Shown piece after piece: positions 10,373-23,979 of a DNA stretch of 64,000 bases. Both the position numbers and the translations under genes were made by a program. Position 1 is the stretch's first letter. Each line of letters starts with the position of its first letter. Origin of the DNA: Niameybacter massiliensis (lineage in GTDB: Bacteria; Bacillota; Clostridia; Lachnospirales; Cellulosilyticaceae); assembly GCF_001282685.1 (NCBI RefSeq), contig NZ_LN875035.1, positions 2,590,001 through 2,654,000 of the forward strand. The letters are read 5' to 3'. Below the pieces are notes generated by a model. That model did not search any database, was not told the origin of the DNA, and was given only the letters and a program-made list of their open reading frames with translations.

Positions 10373-10759
10373 TTACTTTATAATTTGATCAATTTCTTTT
10401 TTGACTTCATACATAATACGCTTACATTCTTCAAAATCCTCTTTATCTACAAGATGATAATCAGGTCCTGGATATCTTGTATCAAAATAGTAGTTGGTTA
10501 AGTAGGCTAAATCTTTCAAGTTAAGATGTAAACTCGGTAATGCCCCTTGTAATGCTCGGCCTAATGTTTTGAGCGAATGAGATCTTAAAACTTCTGTAAT
10601 ATTATCTTCCATATATACTTGTTCAATAACACTTTTTAGAAGTTTCTCTACAATCTGTTGGCAAAGTGCTGATGGCTGATTGTAATAGCCTGTATCTCCA
10701 ATGGCTTCTAGATACGCTAGATCATTACAAGCTATTGCATAGTAACTATTGGCTTTCAT
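10373..10759 (-). CDS. HEPN-domain protein (putative toxin of HEPN/MNT pair)
   Basis: 128 aa all-helical HEPN-family protein (PF05168-like). Visible family features are the N-terminal YYAIACNDLAYLEA helix, QIVEKLLKSVIEQ, the R/H segment LRSHSLKTL and a YFDTRYPGPDY segment. HEPN proteins are often RNases or partners of minimal nucleotidyltransferases. Here the MNT gene overlaps its start by 14 bp, giving the usual type VII-like HEPN/MNT pair in which the MNT modifies and silences the HEPN protein. Its stop lies only a few bases beyond the terminal hairpin of RNA copy 1, which points towards it. Toxicity is inferred from family, not shown. Confidence 0.85.
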   Translation of the reverse strand: MKANSYYAIACNDLAYLEAIGDTGYYNQPSALCQQIVEKLLKSVIEQVYMEDNITEVLRSHSLKTLGRALQGALPSLHLNLKDLAYLTNYYFDTRYPGPDYHLVDKEDFEECKRIMYEVKKEIDQIIK

Positions 10760-11126
10760 TATTCTTCTCCTGTCTCCATAATATCTTTCTGTCTCTCATA
10801 ATATTTTTACAAAATACACTATCTGTCTTATAAAAGTTTTCTTCACTCGCTATTAATAAATCTATACCCATCTCATAGGCTAACTCATAGAGTTCCCCTT
10901 TTTGTATACGCTGGGGCACTTTCTCATAAAGTACATACATATCAACATCACTGGTTGCTTTATATGTTTCTCTTGCGTAACTCCCATATATCCCAATTTC
11001 AATAGGATTCGTTGCAATTAATTCAGGTAATAGCTCTTTTATTTTTTTCTCTTGCTTCTCTCTAAGTTTCTCTTTAATATAGTCCATTTCATGTACTACT
11101 TGCATCCACCCCATCCTCTCATACAC
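10746..11126 (-). CDS. MNT-type nucleotidyltransferase (antitoxin partner)
   Basis: Up to 126 aa. The catalytic signature GSYARETYKATSDVD (GS then DxD) is complete, so it is probably an active minimal nucleotidyltransferase of the Pol-beta superfamily. Related MntA enzymes transfer AMP to their HEPN partner. The ORF opens with GTG at 11126. Internal ATGs at 11114 and 11105 have comparable purine-rich upstream sequence, so the start is uncertain. It is first in a two-gene operon and overlaps the HEPN gene by 14 bp. Alternative role: modification of another substrate, since the pair sits in an accessory region. Confidence 0.85.
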   Translation of the reverse strand: MYERMGWMQVVHEMDYIKEKLREKQEKKIKELLPELIATNPIEIGIYGSYARETYKATSDVDMYVLYEKVPQRIQKGELYELAYEMGIDLLIASEENFYKTDSVFCKNIMRDRKILWRQEKNNESQ

Positions 11127-13820: not shown

Positions 13821-14420
13821 TTAAATCGCTTCTTCTGTTTTACGCACTATGACATTCAGCCACTTTTCCTCACGATCAGGACGCTTATCTACAGTAATCC
13901 CTTGCTCTACTATCACTAACTCTGGGAAATGAGCTAATAACTTGGTAAAACGCTCTTCCGTATAGTCACTAAAGTAACGTCCATTGCGCTCCCCTTCAAA
14001 TTCACCATATTTAAAAGAAGCATACAAAATGCCTTCATTCTTTAAGGCTCTAGATAAACGTCTAAAGACATCCACCATATCTTCTTCTGGTACATGAAGC
14101 AATGTAGCACAAGCCCATATGCCATCATAAAGATTTACATCTTCTATCTCTTGAAAAATCATCTGGCGAACTGGTTGTCCTATAAGCTCTGCTGTTTGGT
14201 TACACATAGCTTCCGAACCATCGATAGCACTTACTTTGTAGCCTGCTTCCTTGAAGGCAAGGCTATCACGACCTGAGCCACACCCTGCATCTAGGATGTG
14301 AGCTGCTTGTGGTAAGTAACTCAGGAACTTACTGCGTAGTTCTGACATATCTACGTTAAGTGTGCCTTCTATGAAGTCTTTGGCATTGGTATTGTAATAG
14401 TTTAAGGTTAATTCTTTCAT
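13821..14420 (-). CDS. Class I SAM-dependent methyltransferase
   Basis: 199 aa Rossmann methyltransferase. Motif I is ILDAGCGSGRDSLAF (residues about 41-55), the acidic end of beta-2 is SAIDGSEAM, and a motif IV-like region is DGIWACATLLHV. There is no NPPY/DPPY motif, so an exocyclic-amino DNA methylase is not supported. Small-molecule or protein targets, as in TehB/UbiE-like enzymes, are more likely. Its ATG overlaps the stop of the PLD-helicase gene (ATGA), with AAAGGGGG at correct spacing inside that gene, so the two products are made together. That coupling is the main clue to a shared, unknown job. Confidence 0.87.
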   Translation of the reverse strand: MKELTLNYYNTNAKDFIEGTLNVDMSELRSKFLSYLPQAAHILDAGCGSGRDSLAFKEAGYKVSAIDGSEAMCNQTAELIGQPVRQMIFQEIEDVNLYDGIWACATLLHVPEEDMVDVFRRLSRALKNEGILYASFKYGEFEGERNGRYFSDYTEERFTKLLAHFPELVIVEQGITVDKRPDREEKWLNVIVRKTEEAI

Positions 14421-16927
14421 TTTTGGAGCCCCCTTTTATTTTTATCTTCAAATTGTCTACGATAGTAATCTGCTACTCTATAGTCTATAATTTCTTTAAA
14501 ATGTTTCTTGAAGTATGGATTCTTTAAATAAGGCTCGAGTATCTCATCTAAAGAAAGTAAATAATCTTCTTTAGCTTTAAAGAAGCCTCCTCCATTTTTT
14601 AAAAATGCATTAATAGGTTGATTAAGTACCTCTGTCTTCCATTCTTTTGACGTCCAAGTGCTATAGTGAGTCTTTTTATCCCCTTGTAAGAGATCACGAT
14701 CATTAGACCCTTTTTTATAGAATGTTTTACATACTTCACTGGCTTCTTCTAATGTAATATCAAGGCGTATATCTCCGTTATTATAGAACGCAAGCAAAAG
14801 CGGCATCTTGTATGTCCGCTGCATGCCTGTAATACTCATTTGCTGTAAAAAGTCTCCTGCTCGTGTATCTATCAAAGCTATTTCTTCTTCACATAGTTCA
14901 TCTTGTATCTTTAAAAAGGCCAAATAGTCTTTAAGAACTTTACTTCCCATCTTCTTGGTTAGCTCCGATGGGGTATGGATGAAAACTTCTTTTCTTGTAG
15001 GTCTTCCTCCCACTACACTTTTAATACGCTCATACTCCTCTATACATTTTTCTAGATCGTTTTGACTTTTCTTACCCATTTCTTTGAACAAGTCGATCAA
15101 TCTAAAATCAAAATCCAAGATGCAATCTTCTGGTAGCTCTATGGTCTGAGGATTCATCTTTTTGATTTCGCTTTCCGTATAAGGGCGATTTCCTAATAAA
15201 AACGGGAAAATATTTGCCTTCTTATAATTACCAATAAAGTCTAAAACATTTAAGTACTCTTTACCTTTACACTTTCTTAATCCCCTTCCCAATTGTTGTA
15301 AGAATATTGTAGTCGATTGAGTCGGTCGTAAGAAAAGCACCATATCCACTTCTGGCACATCTACCCCTTCATTGAACATATCTACAGAGAAAATAATTTG
15401 AATTTCACCTCTTCTTAACTGTCCAATTGCCTCACTTCGTTCTGCTGTCTGTTCACCTTGTTCACCACTATAGACAGCTACAGCTTTTATACCCTGTTTA
15501 TTGAAATAGTGCGCCATATATTCTGCATGAGATTTAGAGCTACAAAAGCCCATGGCACGTTTAGAACTATACTTTTGATAGTGTTTTAATATAAGTTCTG
15601 CACGCCTACTAATCATCAGTCCCGCATCCAATTGTTGCTTATCATACTTACTATTTTTATACTCTATTTCATCATAGTTTACTGTCTCATCATAAATTGC
15701 ATAATATCTAAAAGGTACTAGCCAGCCCTTGTTAATAGCTTCTTGCAAACGTACCTCATAAACTAAATTGTCACCTGCAATTTCAAAAACATCTCCATTA
15801 TCCATACGTTCCGGTGTAGCCGTTAAAAATAGCCAAAAAACTGGTGTAAAGTAATCTAATACACTAGTATATTGACGTGCTATTGCATGATGACATTCGT
15901 CAATAATAACATAATCAAACGCATCTGCTGCAAAGAACTCTTGATTTAAGTATTCATTCTTCCCTAAAGTCTGAACTAAAGCAAAAGTTACTTCTTTATC
16001 TACATCTTTCTTATTGCCATAAAAGAATCCTGTACTTTCTGTCTGTCGTACTTTTCTAAAGCTTTCTTCTGCCTGCTTTAAAATTTCTTCTCGATGTGCT
16101 ACAAATAAAACACGTTTATAAGGCTTTGAATCAAATGCAGCAAGATAAGTCTTTCCTATACCCGTTGCCGCTACAACAAGTCCACGTTCCCAGCCTTCTT
16201 CTCTTGTATTCTTTAACGCATACAATGCTTCAATTTGTGCACCCCGTGGTTCATACAAGTCAATTACACTACGTTCACCTATCTCTTCCAATGCTTCTTG
16301 TGCAAGTTGCTGAGACTTTGAAAACAATTTAGGCTTTGTCCAACTTTTTGAATATGCCTCTAGTACCTCATCTGTTACAACTGTAGAGTGGCATTCAAAG
16401 AGATTTACGAATTCATTATAAAAATACTGAAAATCCTCTGGACTTTGTGACTTAGCAAAACGATAATTCCATTCTACAGAATTTGTTAATGCACCACGCG
16501 ATATATTTGAAGAACCTACATAGATTTCACTATCTACTTGTCCATGAAAAAGATATGCCTTTGGATGAAATGATTTATTTTGTACATTGTACAATCTAAG
16601 ATCCAACCGCTCTCCCAGAGCCTCACGAATTAAATATAATGCCGAAGGTTCTGTAATATGTAAATAGTTCCCTGTTAACAGACGAATCTTCACCCCACGG
16701 TTTATTGCTTCCTTTAAGTCTCCAAGAAGTAGCTTAACCCCTGATTCCATAAGAAAAGATACAATAATATCTATTGATTGCGCATTTTTCATACTCGTTT
16801 TAAGACGGTTATATAAGTGATCTGATTCTCCCGTAATGGCATTCACAAGACGGATAGAATCATCAATATGTTTACTTGTTTTATAAAGTAAGTCATGTTT
16901 AAGTTGTTCTGTATTGATAATGTTCAC
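14417..16927 (-). CDS. PLD-like nuclease / superfamily II helicase fusion (DUF3427-type C-terminus)
   Basis: 836 aa. The N-terminus has a phospholipase-D-type nuclease domain with H121-P-K and G-S-S-N at 138-141, a single HKD half-site that would need a dimer. Next is a DEAD/DEAH helicase: Walker A VAATGIGKT (252-260), DECH at 343-346, motif III FLTATPERMD, and motif VI QLGRGLRK. The remaining C-terminal third resembles the DUF3427 region found in this helicase class. Such proteins occur in defence islands and as solitary DNA-processing enzymes. The start is odd: the ORF opens with GTG embedded in the AGGGG ribosome site, and ATT 5 nt further on has better spacing. A 16-bp inverted repeat lies upstream at 16998-17048. 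Confidence 0.88.
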   Translation of the reverse strand: MNIINTEQLKHDLLYKTSKHIDDSIRLVNAITGESDHLYNRLKTSMKNAQSIDIIVSFLMESGVKLLLGDLKEAINRGVKIRLLTGNYLHITEPSALYLIREALGERLDLRLYNVQNKSFHPKAYLFHGQVDSEIYVGSSNISRGALTNSVEWNYRFAKSQSPEDFQYFYNEFVNLFECHSTVVTDEVLEAYSKSWTKPKLFSKSQQLAQEALEEIGERSVIDLYEPRGAQIEALYALKNTREEGWERGLVVAATGIGKTYLAAFDSKPYKRVLFVAHREEILKQAEESFRKVRQTESTGFFYGNKKDVDKEVTFALVQTLGKNEYLNQEFFAADAFDYVIIDECHHAIARQYTSVLDYFTPVFWLFLTATPERMDNGDVFEIAGDNLVYEVRLQEAINKGWLVPFRYYAIYDETVNYDEIEYKNSKYDKQQLDAGLMISRRAELILKHYQKYSSKRAMGFCSSKSHAEYMAHYFNKQGIKAVAVYSGEQGEQTAERSEAIGQLRRGEIQIIFSVDMFNEGVDVPEVDMVLFLRPTQSTTIFLQQLGRGLRKCKGKEYLNVLDFIGNYKKANIFPFLLGNRPYTESEIKKMNPQTIELPEDCILDFDFRLIDLFKEMGKKSQNDLEKCIEEYERIKSVVGGRPTRKEVFIHTPSELTKKMGSKVLKDYLAFLKIQDELCEEEIALIDTRAGDFLQQMSITGMQRTYKMPLLLAFYNNGDIRLDITLEEASEVCKTFYKKGSNDRDLLQGDKKTHYSTWTSKEWKTEVLNQPINAFLKNGGGFFKAKEDYLLSLDEILEPYLKNPYFKKHFKEIIDYRVADYYRRQFEDKNKRGLQK

Positions 16928-17447: not shown

Positions 17448-19907
17448 CTAGATTAGCTTTCCTAACCTCTTTTTCAAATCATCCATCAGTTTTTCCCCAA
17501 CGAACATAAACTTAGCATATTCTCTCGTAACAACATTAATCTCATCTTCCACACTCATTGCTTTTTCATCTTGATCTACGTCCTTAGGCTTTTTGTTATT
17601 GTGGCGCATACCAATCGCCATGAAAAGCATCATGTAAGTGTACATTTGTTTGTACAGGTCTTTCTCTACTTCGTCTGTGAGCGAGTCAATTTTCACTTTA
17701 AGCGCTGTATTATCTATATTAATATAATATGTTTCTGTTCCTAGGTCATTAACAAGCATGACTGCACTTTCTGCCTTCATACCTGATAGCCAGTTTTCCT
17801 CAGTTACTTCTCGATAATTTGGTAGGCCTATCTCATTTTTATTATTTCCTTTATCTTTTATCTTTCCTTGTACATCATCTTTCACATCAAGCAGGATAGT
17901 ATATTCAAATGTCAATCCACCTTTGCAAGTAATTCTAAACTCAAGTGTCTTTTGCATAATCTTTTTGCCTGCCAGCTTATCATTAAAAATGAAAGTTGCC
18001 TTGCCGTTTTTAATGACTTTACTAAACTCACTGGTTTCTTTTCCATCTACCACAATAGTTACTTGGCCTTGATGATTCATTCTAGTGAAAAAATCTTCTT
18101 CTACATCCGTGACAAATCTTATACGAAAGCTTTTGTTGATCGCAGTTGGTTTAAGGTATTCATCATTTTCATTTTTTCTAAGCATAGGTTTGAAATACGT
18201 TGGCATATATTGAGTTTGAATAGACTCACGCTTACTGTTTTTGCGTGGTTCTCCACCTTGTACTGGATGTGGTACAGAAACTTCACCTTCTTCTCCCTCT
18301 TCTTGCTCCTCTTTTTTTACCTTATTGTTAAAAATATTATTGCCTAGCAGTAACTCACTGATAGTTGGGTCTTTTTCTACCCACTCCTTCATAATCTCTT
18401 TGATAGCTTCACTATCTTGTGGTTTAGTAGCATCTGCTTTTAAGATGTACTTTCTAAATTCACGTAGTTCTTCACTTTTAGAAATGAAATCCTTTAACTT
18501 TTGTTCTATGATCTTCTTAGGTTTTTTATCATAAAGACGCTCTCTATCTGTCGCAAAAAGATCACTTCTAAAACGTGTTGAAATGTTAGGAAACTCAATA
18601 ATCATAATAATTAGATCTTGTATTGCTCCTAACCCCGCACCATTTAAGAAACGTCCTGTTAATCCCCCTTGGAACTGTTGACCTAAGCAAAATTTAACAG
18701 GCTTAGCGCCTTCCATAAGTTTTCCGGCATTAAGGTCAGAACTAGCTTTTTTATTACAGCAGTAAACCGTTACAACTACTTGCTGATCCTCTGCTTTAAA
18801 GTCAAAATTGAATTTGCTATGTACAAGTCCTTTTTCCTCTTCTTCATTATTTCTTAAATCTGCTTGAATAACCTTTTTAAATCCCCTGAAATAGAGGCTG
18901 TTACTACCTTTATTCTTTCTGCAATCTATAAATCGAATAGGTAAATAGGTATCATTAATATAAGCTGCTAAATCATATTTTACATTTCCATTTAAAGGTC
19001 CCTTTTTAGCCAATTTGTAATTATAAAGTTTTATTGCTGTTCCACTTTGAACTTGTTCTTCATATGGAATAAATCCTTTACAAGAGCCTTCATATTGTAA
19101 ATACGTTTTGGAATCCTTATTACTTAATTCTTTTGGAAGTAAAGGAAGTGTTTCCTCTTCGATCATTAATATTTTTCCATTAGGTGCATAGTAAGTATAT
19201 ACAGGATCTTTAGCATTTTCTCTAATTTCTTTTCTAATTAGTGTCCATCCCCATTTATCTACTGTTTTTATATCTGTTGCTTGTTCTTTGGGTATATACC
19301 CGTTACGTTTACTAATCACCAAACAATAACCATTTTCACCACAATACATAAGTGCTCCACTTCCACCTTGATTATAATTTCCTTGTGTGAAAGGAATAGC
19401 ACTTTTATTGCCTTTAAGTAACGATAAAATTGTATCTTCTAAACGAGACGGTTCCTGACCCTCTCCTCTATCAAAAATAATGAGGTTAGGATTATTACGA
19501 CTTTGCTTTTCAGTTGGTTTACAATCTTTACTTGTTGCCATGAGTAATATATTTTGGCTTAATTCTCTTTCCTGCTCTTTTTCAATATTAGAAGTTTCGC
19601 CTTCTTTTATACCAAAAAATACCTCAAGCGCTTGCCTAGAACTTGAAGGTGCGTCTTTTCCTTTTGGATCAATGCCTTTTTCATAGCATTTTCTCATTAA
19701 TACTGCATCTACTGAATTGGTAAACTTTTCAATTAATGCTCTTTCAGCATTTGAAGCTTGATTTCCTATGACACTAAAATTACTTTCATTCTCACCATAT
19801 GGTTTCCAATCTTGTTCCTCATTCATATTTAATAACTCAATAAGCTTTGTTACTTCCTTCTCAGTTTCTGCTTGGTAAAATTTTATAAATAAATCTTTCG
19901 AGTTCAT
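17448..19907 (-). CDS. Large GHKL (Hsp90/MutL/MORC-fold) ATPase of unknown function
   Basis: 819 aa. The N-terminal GHKL ATPase is recognisable: N box ERALIEKFTNSVDAV with E60, N64 and D67; G1 box FDRGEG at 145-150; and a glycine-rich lid NQGGSGAL at 179-186. The middle and C-terminal parts (about 200-819) match nothing I know. They include a conserved-looking RFRSDLFATDRERLYDKKP stretch and an acidic Glu/Lys linker near 530-545. Proteins with this head include prokaryotic paraMORC ATPases, associated with helicases, nucleases and methylases in defence clusters. The neighbours here (helicase-nuclease-LexA upstream, PLD-helicase and methyltransferase downstream) fit that. AAGGATGG precedes the start. 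The function is not established. Confidence 0.8.
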   Translation of the reverse strand: MNSKDLFIKFYQAETEKEVTKLIELLNMNEEQDWKPYGENESNFSVIGNQASNAERALIEKFTNSVDAVLMRKCYEKGIDPKGKDAPSSSRQALEVFFGIKEGETSNIEKEQERELSQNILLMATSKDCKPTEKQSRNNPNLIIFDRGEGQEPSRLEDTILSLLKGNKSAIPFTQGNYNQGGSGALMYCGENGYCLVISKRNGYIPKEQATDIKTVDKWGWTLIRKEIRENAKDPVYTYYAPNGKILMIEEETLPLLPKELSNKDSKTYLQYEGSCKGFIPYEEQVQSGTAIKLYNYKLAKKGPLNGNVKYDLAAYINDTYLPIRFIDCRKNKGSNSLYFRGFKKVIQADLRNNEEEEKGLVHSKFNFDFKAEDQQVVVTVYCCNKKASSDLNAGKLMEGAKPVKFCLGQQFQGGLTGRFLNGAGLGAIQDLIIMIIEFPNISTRFRSDLFATDRERLYDKKPKKIIEQKLKDFISKSEELREFRKYILKADATKPQDSEAIKEIMKEWVEKDPTISELLLGNNIFNNKVKKEEQEEGEEGEVSVPHPVQGGEPRKNSKRESIQTQYMPTYFKPMLRKNENDEYLKPTAINKSFRIRFVTDVEEDFFTRMNHQGQVTIVVDGKETSEFSKVIKNGKATFIFNDKLAGKKIMQKTLEFRITCKGGLTFEYTILLDVKDDVQGKIKDKGNNKNEIGLPNYREVTEENWLSGMKAESAVMLVNDLGTETYYINIDNTALKVKIDSLTDEVEKDLYKQMYTYMMLFMAIGMRHNNKKPKDVDQDEKAMSVEDEINVVTREYAKFMFVGEKLMDDLKKRLGKLI

Positions 19908-20050: not shown

Positions 20051-22471
20051 TTATACTTTCTTAATAACCCCCACCAATTTTCCCATTACCTTAAAGTCTC
20101 CTTCTGAGATCTGTATCGGTTCATACTCTGGATTTTCACTCATAAGTAGTATGCTATCTCCCATAGGTACCACTCTCTTAAGGGTTGTTGCACCATTATA
20201 GTACACTGCGCCTATATCGTTTGTATTAACCACTTGAGCATCATCTATAACAACCATATCTCCACTTTCTATTCCTGCACCAAGCATACTATCCCCTCGT
20301 ACATTAAGAATGTAGAGCCCTGGTCTTTCTTTTGTCCATTCTTTTGGTAGTCTAAAGTTACCTTTGATCTCATCTACAATCTCTATAGGCATGCCTGCTG
20401 CAATATCTGAATAAATCTTAATATTCTGAAGTGTATCACCTGAAAATACACCATTTTCTGTTATAATCTCTGCTACATTAATATCTCTTTCAAATGGATA
20501 GTTCCTGTAAGTTCCTTTATCTACATAAATATAACGTTCCATCGTTGTTGGTAATAGTGTAATATCGCATACAGGAATATCCTTAATCTCATTAAATTGT
20601 TGGTCTAGGAATATAATTTCTTTCCCATTAGTCGCTATACCGTATGTGACATTGGATACGTTCATATAGGATTTGAGCTGAGCAACTGCTTCTTCTATAG
20701 CTACATTACGTTGTTTCACTTCTACAAATAAATGGGGCATCTGATTGTTACTATTGATAACAGCTATGTCCACTAAACCTACTTGTGAGAAGCTTCTAAC
20801 AGGATACTCTACTTGTAACAATTCCTTTGGATAACCATAGTTATTGATTAGCTCTGCTAGCACCCATTGTCTAATACTTTCTTCTTGTTCATGCTTATTT
20901 TTAATCTTCTCTATAAATAAGTATTGCTCATAAGGCAGTTGATAAAAGGCATTCATACGGCTTCCATTTTGCATGGTCAAAAACTTTTTATCTATATCTT
21001 TAATAAACTTGGAAGCCTCCCCATATGAACATAAATATAGACTTTCTTGTGCTCTTGTCATCCCTACATAAAGCAATTTGCGATCCATTTTCTCTTCTTC
21101 TTTGGCTTCTTCCTCCGTTAATCCACTTTGAGTATATGGAATAATATTTTTATTAAGCTCTATTAAAATTACAATTTTAAACTCTAATCCTTTTACAGAG
21201 TGCATGGTTAGAAGTTTGATTTCTTCTTTTCCAAAATCTACTTCTTTGTTGTTTTTAAATAAGAGTGATGGCATATGCGCCTCGTCTAATACTTCTTGCA
21301 AAAGTTCTAATGCCTTATTCGTGCGACTCACAATAGCAATATCTTTTAAATTATAACTTTTCTTTAAGGCATTGATTAAACGAATGACATAGTTTGTTTG
21401 CTCTTTGCTTGATTCAAAATGTCTATAAACAGGGTATTCTCCATGTCTTTCTATAAGAGTTGGCTTTACAAAATTCTCATCTTCTACAATTTCTAGTTCT
21501 TTTGATAACAAGCTATATGCACATTGAGAAATCTCTGTTGTTGTACGATAATTTTTATTAAGTTTATAACCTTTTCCTGTCATATCATAGCCAATACTTT
21601 TAAAGGTGCGTCCTTTTGTCAGCCATGCATGAGGATAGATACTTTGAGCAACATCCATTAAAAACAAAATGGAGCTTTCTTCTTGCTCTGCCTTTAACGC
21701 ACTAATAAGCTCTAGCTGAACCTTTGTTAAGTCTTGGGCTTCATCAATGATAATATGCTGATACCTTTCTTCCGCACCATGCTTCACAATGTATTTGAGT
21801 GCCATAATATTCGCTGTTAATCCATCCACTTGATTATTTTCAAAAAGCCTTCTATCTATTTCTTTTAGCAAGCTATAGATTGCCTCTCTGTTGGTAGATT
21901 GCTTATAAAGTTTGCTAGGTCCTTCTTCTTCACTCCCTAGAGAACGTCCTATTCTATCTGCATTTTGATAAGCTTCTAGCGTTGTATAACCACATCCTTT
22001 AATCCATGCAATTTCATCTTTCAAAAATTTAAAATGCTGGTTATTCAAAAACTTACAATTTGGATAGGCTTCCTTTACTGTAGCAATTGCTTCTTGTACC
22101 AAACTATTTGGTATTTGCCAAGCTATTGTTGCATTCTTTTGACTCAGTACATTGTACTTACTAAAATATTTTAAAGCTAATGCATCGATTGTTTTTACCT
22201 CTACATTTGGATCCTTACTTTCTTCTGTATCAAAAAGACTTATATTAACAGCTGTTTCCATCTTTTTATAAAGATACTCAATATATTTACTCAGTGAACG
22301 GTTATATGTAATAAACAAAATTTTATCTGATTCATAACAATAATTTTCAAGTAAATAAGTAATTCTTCTAACCCCTACAGTTGTTTTGCCTGATCCTGCA
22401 ATGCCTCTAATAAGTGCATGTCCCATTGCTCCATTTTCGGCTAGCTTAAGCTGTTCTCTATTTAAGTGCAC
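20051..22471 (-). CDS. UvrD-type helicase fused to a PD-(D/E)XK-like nuclease and a LexA-like S24 domain
   Basis: 806 aa. Superfamily I helicase: Walker A GIAGSGKTT (23-31), IIIDEAQDL (motif II), LNKNYRTT, MHSVKGLEF and LLYVGMTRA (motif VI). A restriction-enzyme-like segment follows, with VDIAV and, 13-15 residues later, FVEVKQ (D...ExK). The last ~130 residues form a LexA/UmuD-type S24 module: cleavage site A692-G693 (DIAAGMP), catalytic S728 (RGDSM) and K765 (TLKRV). S728-K765 spacing equals E. coli LexA (S119-K156). There is no helix-turn-helix, so it is not a repressor. RecA-stimulated self-cleavage during DNA damage is the obvious inference. The start is GTG with AAGGGGAG 7 nt upstream. 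It is first in a minus-strand cluster with the GHKL ATPase. Confidence 0.88.
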   Translation of the reverse strand: MHLNREQLKLAENGAMGHALIRGIAGSGKTTVGVRRITYLLENYCYESDKILFITYNRSLSKYIEYLYKKMETAVNISLFDTEESKDPNVEVKTIDALALKYFSKYNVLSQKNATIAWQIPNSLVQEAIATVKEAYPNCKFLNNQHFKFLKDEIAWIKGCGYTTLEAYQNADRIGRSLGSEEEGPSKLYKQSTNREAIYSLLKEIDRRLFENNQVDGLTANIMALKYIVKHGAEERYQHIIIDEAQDLTKVQLELISALKAEQEESSILFLMDVAQSIYPHAWLTKGRTFKSIGYDMTGKGYKLNKNYRTTTEISQCAYSLLSKELEIVEDENFVKPTLIERHGEYPVYRHFESSKEQTNYVIRLINALKKSYNLKDIAIVSRTNKALELLQEVLDEAHMPSLLFKNNKEVDFGKEEIKLLTMHSVKGLEFKIVILIELNKNIIPYTQSGLTEEEAKEEEKMDRKLLYVGMTRAQESLYLCSYGEASKFIKDIDKKFLTMQNGSRMNAFYQLPYEQYLFIEKIKNKHEQEESIRQWVLAELINNYGYPKELLQVEYPVRSFSQVGLVDIAVINSNNQMPHLFVEVKQRNVAIEEAVAQLKSYMNVSNVTYGIATNGKEIIFLDQQFNEIKDIPVCDITLLPTTMERYIYVDKGTYRNYPFERDINVAEIITENGVFSGDTLQNIKIYSDIAAGMPIEIVDEIKGNFRLPKEWTKERPGLYILNVRGDSMLGAGIESGDMVVIDDAQVVNTNDIGAVYYNGATTLKRVVPMGDSILLMSENPEYEPIQISEGDFKVMGKLVGVIKKV

Positions 22472-22717
22472 CCCTGATCTCCCCTTTTTAGACTAGTATT
22501 TAATATAATCATAATTATACCAAATATTTCGTCATTTATATATAAAACTATTTACTAAAAAGCACGTATTTTGCTTCTCTTAAATTTCTCTCTTATCTAT
22601 TACTTGTAACCATTTCTACAATTTTTCACATTCACTCTTATTAACCTTCCACAAACTTAACTTTTCTTTCATTTTCTCCGACGGATTTCCCTCTCTAATT
22701 TGTATATATAGAGTGTA
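22472..22717. other. Intergenic region between UvrD-LexA gene and RNA copy 3
   Basis: AT-rich, no coding signal. It carries the UvrD-LexA promoter on the minus strand and, at 22703-22710, the TATATATA box in front of RNA copy 3 on the plus strand, so the two transcripts diverge from here. Confidence 0.45.
22513..22526 (-). promoter_or_regulatory. Extended -10 promoter for the UvrD-LexA gene
   Basis: TGGTATAAT on the minus strand about 50 bp upstream of the GTG start is a good extended -10. The -35 region is poor. No Bacillus-type LexA box (GAAC-N4-GTTC) was seen nearby. Confidence 0.4.
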
Positions 22718-23228
22718 AGGGTTAAGCCTCACAGGTAACTTTGGTGGCCACCGACTTGTGCCTTAATCCTTACTTCTAAGAAAAGTTTAGATACGCTGTA
22801 GGATTCCTCCCTCTTGCCTATTGTTCGTCTTCTTTTCTTAGTAACCTTATCTATAGTGTCTGTGGCAAGCCTATTGATAAGATGCAACACCCTTAGTTTC
22901 AAACTTTGTATCACTTACTTTGTTTAATTACATATTTAGATTTCTATACTCTACTATGAGCTTTAAAGCAATCTCACGCTGCTATAACCTGTATGCATAC
23001 GCTACAGTGATACGTATATCAAATACCTCTATCACCTAAGATTACCCATACGTCTTATAGAGATAAAGATCGCACACCAGCTCATGTAACCCTTTTAGAT
23101 TTCTATCTATTTCCGAACGCCTTGTGTTACTGAACTTATAGAAACACTTTTGCCACACAGACAACAAGCTCACCTTGATCTACCTTATTTTAAGAGGGAG
23201 GGTAGACTCTAGGTGAGCTTGTTGTGTT
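22718..23228 (+). ncRNA. Large structured RNA, copy 3 (subfamily B)
   Basis: About 511 nt. The primary sequence is largely unlike copies 1/2, but the architecture is the same. A 5' hairpin (CACAGGT/ACTTGTG) presents the 10-nt palindrome GGTGGCCACC (22743-22752). Stem CTAAGAAAAG/CTTTTCTTAG encloses CCTCCCTCTT (22806-22815), exactly complementary to AAGAGGGAGG (23192-23201) in the terminal hairpin loop. A stem near 22847-22882 presents TGTGGCAA (22861-22868), complementary to TTGCCACA (23150-23157). The terminal hairpin ACAACAAGCTCACCT / AGGTGAGCTTGTTGT spans about 23160-23225. A 61-codon minus-strand frame inside is not credible as a gene. Confidence 0.75.
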
Positions 23229-23420
23229 GTTATAAAATTCATCTTGACATTTGTCCTATCATTCTTATTTTTCTCTGTATGACACCTACCTATTCCATCT
23301 CTTATTTGCACAATTTCCACTTACTTTAACTACTCATTTCCTATATGTTTTGCACAAAGATATTTTTATTTCTTATTTTTTTGAGGAAAATGGTGCCCTA
23401 TTCCGTATATATATAAGTGA

Positions 23421-23926
23421 AAGGCAAAACAAAGCAAGTAACAAATGGGTGGCCACCTACTTGCTGTTTCCCTTTCCCTAAGAAAAGTTGGACAAGCTTT
23501 AGGGTTCCCTCCCTCTTACCTTTAGCACCTCCCTTTTCTTAATCAACTAAATCTACTTCATGGTGGTGGCAAGCCAGGTAGATTTGGGGCAATACCGCTT
23601 TGCATTGGCTTCGTGGTATCTTGTGTTACTTCCATTTAATCTTTGTACTTTCCTATGTATTTATTTCTAGCCACCCCCTGCATACTACAGGTTAATAACA
23701 ATCTAACGTGTTATGTATATAAAGATACCTCTATCACTAAAGAAACCTTATTCACCTTATACCTATCAGGATTACACTAGAAGTTCATACCTATCTCAGT
23801 TACAAGCTTTAAGTTGAAGTAGATAAGTGCTGTGGACCTTGGAGTGCCTTGCCACTATGCAACAAGCCTACTTAAGTGCATCTCATGTTCAAGAGGGAGA
23901 GATACCTTAGGTAGGCTTGTTGTGTT
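23421..23926 (+). ncRNA. Large structured RNA, copy 4 (subfamily B)
   Basis: About 506 nt, arranged in tandem about 190 bp after copy 3. The 5' hairpin AGCAAGTA/TACTTGCT carries the same palindromic loop GGTGGCCACC (23448-23457) on a different, compensated stem. TAAGAAAAG/CTTTTCTTA encloses CTCCCTCTT (23509-23517), complementary to AAGAGGGAG (23891-23899). Stem AAATCTAC/GTAGATTT (23549-23585) presents GTGGCAAG (23566-23573), complementary to CTTGCCAC (23848-23855). The terminal hairpin CAACAAGCCTAC / GTAGGCTTGTTG ends near 23922. A TATATATA box lies at about 23406-23415. The convergent membrane-protein gene ends at 23980. Confidence 0.75.
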
Positions 23927-23979
23927 CTATATTCACAATTAATGCACGGATTTCTATCACAAAACTATTTAGCTTGATG

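Follow-up and report, generated by a model that had tools for sequence, protein, structure and literature searches.

A family of UvrD-type helicase-nucleases from defence islands that carries a LexA-like S24 domain predicted to self-cleave

The repressors LexA and CI are known to cleave themselves through a peptidase family S24 domain, as is the polymerase subunit UmuD. The upstream site of this family is Ala-Gly (or Cys-Gly), and its autoproteolysis responds to the RecA filament or to alkaline pH. S24 domains cleave themselves, in most cases upon meeting a RecA filament (PMC9578287), and HsdR-type motors, for their part, undergo damage-induced alleviation (PMC4231737). In the stretch of Niameybacter massiliensis DNA analysed here (64,000 nucleotides, referred to as the window), a single open reading frame combines an S24 domain with a helicase and a nuclease (Table 1).

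This combination of a UvrD helicase, a nuclease and a LexA-type domain in one protein had been proposed from the letters alone (the original prediction), and all parts were recovered by Pfam (PF00580, PF13361, PF13588 and PF00717, each with an E-value below 1e-23). The reading frame is preceded by a Shine-Dalgarno-like AGGGGAG just upstream of its GTG start. Its helicase part belongs to the UvrD-type SF1 enzymes, with motifs I to VI complete and invariant or nearly so, among them Walker A (G23xAGSGKT30) and Walker B (D243EAQD247). What had been described as a D...ExK nuclease-like segment proved to be an HSDR_N_2 domain, related to that of HsdR (PF13588/PF04313 in Pfam), and its E531...D568...E584-V-K586...Q598 residues supply the E...D...ExK...Q core of HSDR_N-type PD-(D/E)XK nucleases. 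The C-terminal part combines a peptidase family S24 domain match with the Ser/Lys dyad and an Ala-Gly site upstream of it. As had also been claimed, no DNA-binding HTH accompanies it, i.e., Pfam returned no HTH match in the 806-aa protein.

Table 1. Positions of the gene, its domains, its neighbours in the window and the short paralogues (window numbering, except for the paralogues).
Feature	Position	Strand	Details
Helicase-nuclease-S24 ORF	20051..22471	minus	806 aa, GTG start
SF1/UvrD helicase N-terminal core	residues 3-279, 21635..22465	minus	PF00580, E 9e-24
UvrD C-terminal helicase motifs V-VI (TMHSxKGLEF, LLYVGMTRA)	residues 406-481, 21029..21256	minus	PF13361, E 2e-27
PD-(D/E)XK nuclease domain, HSDR_N_2 type	residues 529-633, 20573..20887	minus	PF13588, E 2e-26
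Peptidase_S24/LexA C-terminal domain	residues 686-800, 20072..20416	minus	PF00717, E 6e-28
S24 catalytic residues	S728 at 20288-20290; K765 at 20177-20179	minus	Ser-Lys spacing 37
Predicted self-cleavage bond A692-G693 (DIAA/GMP)	20393..20398	minus	Ala-Gly in 26/27 relatives; aligns with LexA A84-G85
819-aa protein	17448..19907	minus	GHKL/HSP90-like ATPase motifs EKFTNSVDA, DRGEG, GGSGAL, read by eye
PLD + SF2 helicase, SauUSI/mREase_IV-like	14417..16927	minus	PF13091, PF04851, PF00271; PADLOC mREase_IV E 2e-93
SAM methyltransferase	13821..14420	minus	PF13649, E 8e-13; 4-base overlap with PLD-helicase gene
HEPN + nucleotidyltransferase (MNT) pair	10373-11126	minus	near same island, beyond methyltransferase
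Short paralogue copies	L200:5615-7126; L201:2295-3791; L202:6647-8197		
Short paralogue copies	L203:3276-4787; L204:7411-8982; L205:7897-9366		

Relatives were encountered in 12 of the 392 genomes of the order sample (the window's own included, the 11 others with full-length relatives) and in 18 of the 398 genomes of the phylum sample, where most of the 17 other genomes held a full-length copy. A relative also occurs in Ilyobacter polytropus of the Fusobacteriota (WP_013389202.1), which is labelled only "S24 family peptidase" in RefSeq. Since the 27 full-length proteins are spread across many genera, chance fusion or an assembly artefact could be ruled out, and the comparison of these sequences indicates that the helicase-nuclease-S24 protein is a real gene family. 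S728 and K765 are kept in 27/27 members, with a spacing of 37 in 26 and of 41 in one, and the predicted cleavage bond is Ala-Gly in all but the Ilyobacter protein, which has Gly-Asp there. The numbering originally given for A692-G693, S728 and K765 and their 37-residue spacing was correct, and none of the full-length members turned out to lack the Ser/Lys pair, an outcome that would have spoken against the prediction. The nuclease residues E531, D568, E584, K586 and Q598 and the Walker A/B cores are likewise invariant across all 27, and this conservation of S24, nuclease and Walker residues is far beyond chance.

The S24 domain also appears to be a constant part of the protein. When residues 1-632 were used as the query, the open frames with helicase and nuclease continued through the S24 domain in 12/12 cases of the order sample, and the copies without S24 were broken or cut by a contig end (a frameshift in G441 and in G593, a contig end in G780). 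In G441, the gene lies in two overlapping frames (L062:7428-9891), interrupted at an A6 run (AATTAAAAAAGC) within the nuclease domain. Because the frames overlap and the break falls at this run, the split looks like a frameshift, a sequencing error or slippage, and a naturally separate S24 gene was discarded. An apparent stand-alone nuclease-S24 protein in G787 was likewise set aside as a truncated remnant adjoining a tyrosine recombinase, and the G593 copy is a pseudogene. The patchy occurrence of the family, together with the broken G593 and G787 copies, fits an accessory gene with fast turnover. Phage records yielded no full-length relative, and scans of viral contigs yielded helicases or S24 repressors as separate proteins only, on which grounds a phage-gene origin was rejected.

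In a profile comparison, LexA proteins of known structure gave a clean alignment with the S24 part (Thermotoga LexA 3k2z, E 7e-31). Structure prediction, which had been put forward as a check on the original prediction, was carried out with AlphaFold for residues 640-806, with an alignment with S24 domains from viral contigs (pLDDT 82, pTM 0.79); a whole-protein model from the single sequence reached a pLDDT of 32, and no use was made of it. The 640-806 model fitted cleavable or RecA-bound LexA best: the mutant 1jhe (L89P Q92W E152A K156A) came first with Z 15.1 (122 residues at 2.4 A), followed by RecA-filament-bound LexA (8s7g with Z 14.9 and 8gms with 14.6; 14.9-14.4 with 8trg), whereas the cleavage-defective mutants 1jhf and 1jhh reached Z 11.7-13.1. 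Residue 692 superposes on LexA Ala84 in the fold comparison, and the modelled geometry supports a cleavage-competent S24 domain. Since AlphaFold tends toward one conformation, the match to cleavable LexA is weak evidence for any given resting state.

No convincing LexA box was found within 200-300 bp upstream of any family member, so that SOS-box control of the family gene was dropped and any SOS control would be post-translational. The separate lexA gene of the same genome is preceded by a LexA box, CGAACGAATGTTTG.

A non-coding element of ~570-600 nt, one end of which resembles an inverted repeat, lies directly upstream of the gene in two diverged copies (76%), at 22670-23235 and 23370-23965 of the window on the minus strand. 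Partial extra copies occur in the same genome (L172:3481-4041 and L173:3801-3977); no copy was found in 40 relatives, and no match in Rfam.

The reading that we tentatively favour is that of a stand-alone, single-gene defence helicase-nuclease with a built-in LexA-type switch. The protein would be made constitutively, with the C-terminal S24 domain holding the helicase-nuclease inactive or dimerised. Single-stranded DNA arising from phage replication or from restriction by a neighbouring system would then give rise to RecA filaments that bind the S24 domain and push its loop 683-700 into the site formed by S728 and K765. The ensuing cut at A692-G693 would detach the 114-residue S24 core and leave residues 1-692, an intact helicase-nuclease, free to unwind and degrade DNA. 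The steps of this proposal are not equally secure. The S24 domain is very probably capable of catalytic self-cleavage, and its stimulation by RecA is reasonably likely, while the idea that cleavage turns the enzyme on is a cautious preference. Two points incline us toward activation: helicase and nuclease would both come out of the cut undamaged, and the AA terminus needed for a ClpX-type degron is not conserved. The P2 residue at the predicted cut is S, V, I or T instead of Ala in 11-12/27 members. Of the outcomes that the original prediction had allowed for (switching on, switching off or destabilisation), this replacement of the Ala expected in a LexA/ssrA-like degron somewhat favours release of the S24 module over destabilisation. 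Against an on-switch, activation by RecA filaments would also set the enzyme off after ordinary DNA damage, and the Ilyobacter protein lacks Ala-Gly at the site.

A built-in restriction-alleviation switch is almost as plausible, although somewhat unlikely when judged by itself. The helicase-nuclease would then be active against foreign DNA by default, and RecA filaments marking damaged host DNA would trigger a disarming self-cleavage, with the S24 dimer or the RecA contact lost or the enzyme degraded from its new C-terminus. Such alleviation is established for HsdR helicase-nucleases and the nuclease here is HsdR-like; the absent LexA box would likewise force control to be post-translational, and the new C-terminus would read IAA or VAA in 14/27 members, like that of the LexA fragment. 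The intact helicase and nuclease and the poorly kept AA degron, which favour activation, count against disarming, as does the lack of a consistently paired modification gene.

The genomic surroundings bear on whether the protein serves defence in the first place. The 123 proteins encoded no more than 7 kb from the family gene in 16 genomes matched 92 PADLOC families at E<=1e-30. In the control set, 142 proteins encoded in 16 arbitrarily chosen 14-kb regions of these genomes, only two families were matched, both cysteine desulfurases. Family counts are not system counts, as many models can be hit by one protein, yet the difference is large. The family gene is thus located in defence islands, and the defence link of the effector that had been inferred originally emerged more strongly than the sequence alone could have shown. 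A SauUSI-like helicase, present anywhere in only 79 of the 392 order-sample genomes, lies near the gene in L050 (with an 8 bp overlap), L051, L056 and L058, and methyltransferase relatives or helicase remnants lie near it in L040, L057 and L060, with a methyltransferase relative also in L058. Zorya II (ZorA2/B2/E2) lies 17 bp downstream of the family gene in L052, and a UG10-type reverse transcriptase with a primase-like domain (L037:111-3461) follows another member after 31 bp. Further immediate neighbours include EVE, McrBC-type, GmrSD and Z1 proteins and PDC-S06. Against a defence role, some members (Ilyobacter, L043 and L046) have non-defence surroundings.

In the window itself, genes for the 819-aa GHKL-like protein, the SauUSI-like PLD-SF2 helicase and the methyltransferase come after the family gene, all in its orientation. 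The 819-aa protein gave no Pfam match; its distant relatives reside on plasmids, and the one on a Hymenobacter plasmid adjoins SIR2, DUF262, PAPS-reductase and DUF4007 genes. Both the 819-aa protein and the PLD helicase are absent from most relatives' loci and were rejected as obligate partners. HEPN and MNT proteins, as encoded farther along, form a typical toxin-antitoxin couple.

A paralogue of ~500 aa was present in all seven sampled genomes of genus g3, which belongs to the window's family, and in no other genus sampled. It consists of helicase domain 1 followed directly by the 640-806 segment, with helicase domain 2 and the nuclease deleted (the match of the seventh copy, in G108, spans residues 170-497 only). 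Walker A is kept and DEAQD has become DDA-x-x in most copies, so the short form is predicted to be helicase-dead. IAAG, GDSM and TLKR are retained in the six aligned copies, among which identity is 67-91% in the S24 part and 37-70% in the ATPase part, which indicates selection on the self-cleaving module as such, even where the nuclease is gone and the motor no longer works. Housekeeping-type neighbours are common to the copies in L201-L203, and DUF134/NifX-type/NlpC genes adjoin the paralogue in several g3 genomes. This regular presence in g3 beside such genes, as well as the housekeeping surroundings of the family gene in Ilyobacter and L046, would suit a DNA-repair accessory enzyme that is carried in islands now and then; the strong enrichment beside defence genes over matched controls and the patchy, decaying distribution make this improbable. 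About as improbable is a main role of the S24 domain in docking the motor on RecA-coated single-stranded DNA or in dimerising it, with self-cleavage a slow turnover instead of a signal: UvrD-type helicases act on recombination intermediates and RecA-filament-groove complexes of LexA-type domains (8gms, 8trg and 8s7g) are among the top fold matches, but docking alone would not keep S728/K765 invariant and Ala-Gly nearly so, even in the helicase-dead short paralogue.

In the islands studied here, a DNA-destroying motor with antivirus surroundings is accompanied, if not controlled, by an S24 module. If RecA filaments switch the enzyme, the DNA-damage signal would reach a defence enzyme directly, without a transcription step, and the long-standing question of how bacteria match restriction-type nucleases to the SOS state would become testable (cf. 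damage-induced restriction alleviation). It is conceivable, though we hold it with reserve, that this is the first known effector nuclease to be switched directly and post-translationally by the SOS signal, with helicase-nuclease activity altered at once by RecA filaments that form on broken DNA or on the DNA of an invader, and that the helicase-dead, nuclease-less g3 derivative is a new RecA-filament sensor other than LexA.

Neither PADLOC nor NCBIfam returned a model with the helicase-nuclease-S24 architecture, and the open-access literature searched held no description of it. No named system protein in PADLOC was matched over its full length; the matches listed extend over just the helicase or just the nuclease, and S24 is absent from their annotations. 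Among these, Gabija GajB (E 5e-34) and PADLOC C3a187 (NERD+UvrD, E 6e-38) share an SF1 UvrD-type helicase found in defence islands, and C3a187 likewise pairs UvrD with a nuclease-like domain; here, however, the nuclease is C-terminal and of HSDR_N type, and S24 figures in neither model's description. Among the neighbouring window ORFs searched (methyltransferase, PLD helicase, GHKL-like, MATE, MCP, Crp-like and unassigned proteins), neither the GajA of Gabija (OLD ATPase/TOPRIM nuclease) nor the HsdM/HsdS of type I restriction was seen. HsdR itself has a related PD-(D/E)XK nuclease domain linked to a motor, whereas the motor here is SF1 instead of SF2, the domain order is reversed and S24 is added. 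AddA and RecB also carry an SF1 motor and then a PD-(D/E)XK nuclease in one chain, but their nuclease family differs from HSDR_N_2 and they lack the added S24; AddA scored 58 bits against a cut-off of 708, with partial helicase matches only. Finally, LexA, UmuD and lambda CI share the S24 fold, the Ser/Lys dyad and the Ala-Gly site, with the 37-residue spacing as in LexA. The protein is no LexA repressor (TIGR00498, 78.6 bits against a cut-off of 110.95, with a separate lexA in the genome): it has no HTH, and its S24 domain is joined to an enzyme and not to a DNA-binding or polymerase-accessory part. Each domain is known; what appears to be undescribed is the way they are combined, the location of the combined gene in defence islands and the shortened derivative.
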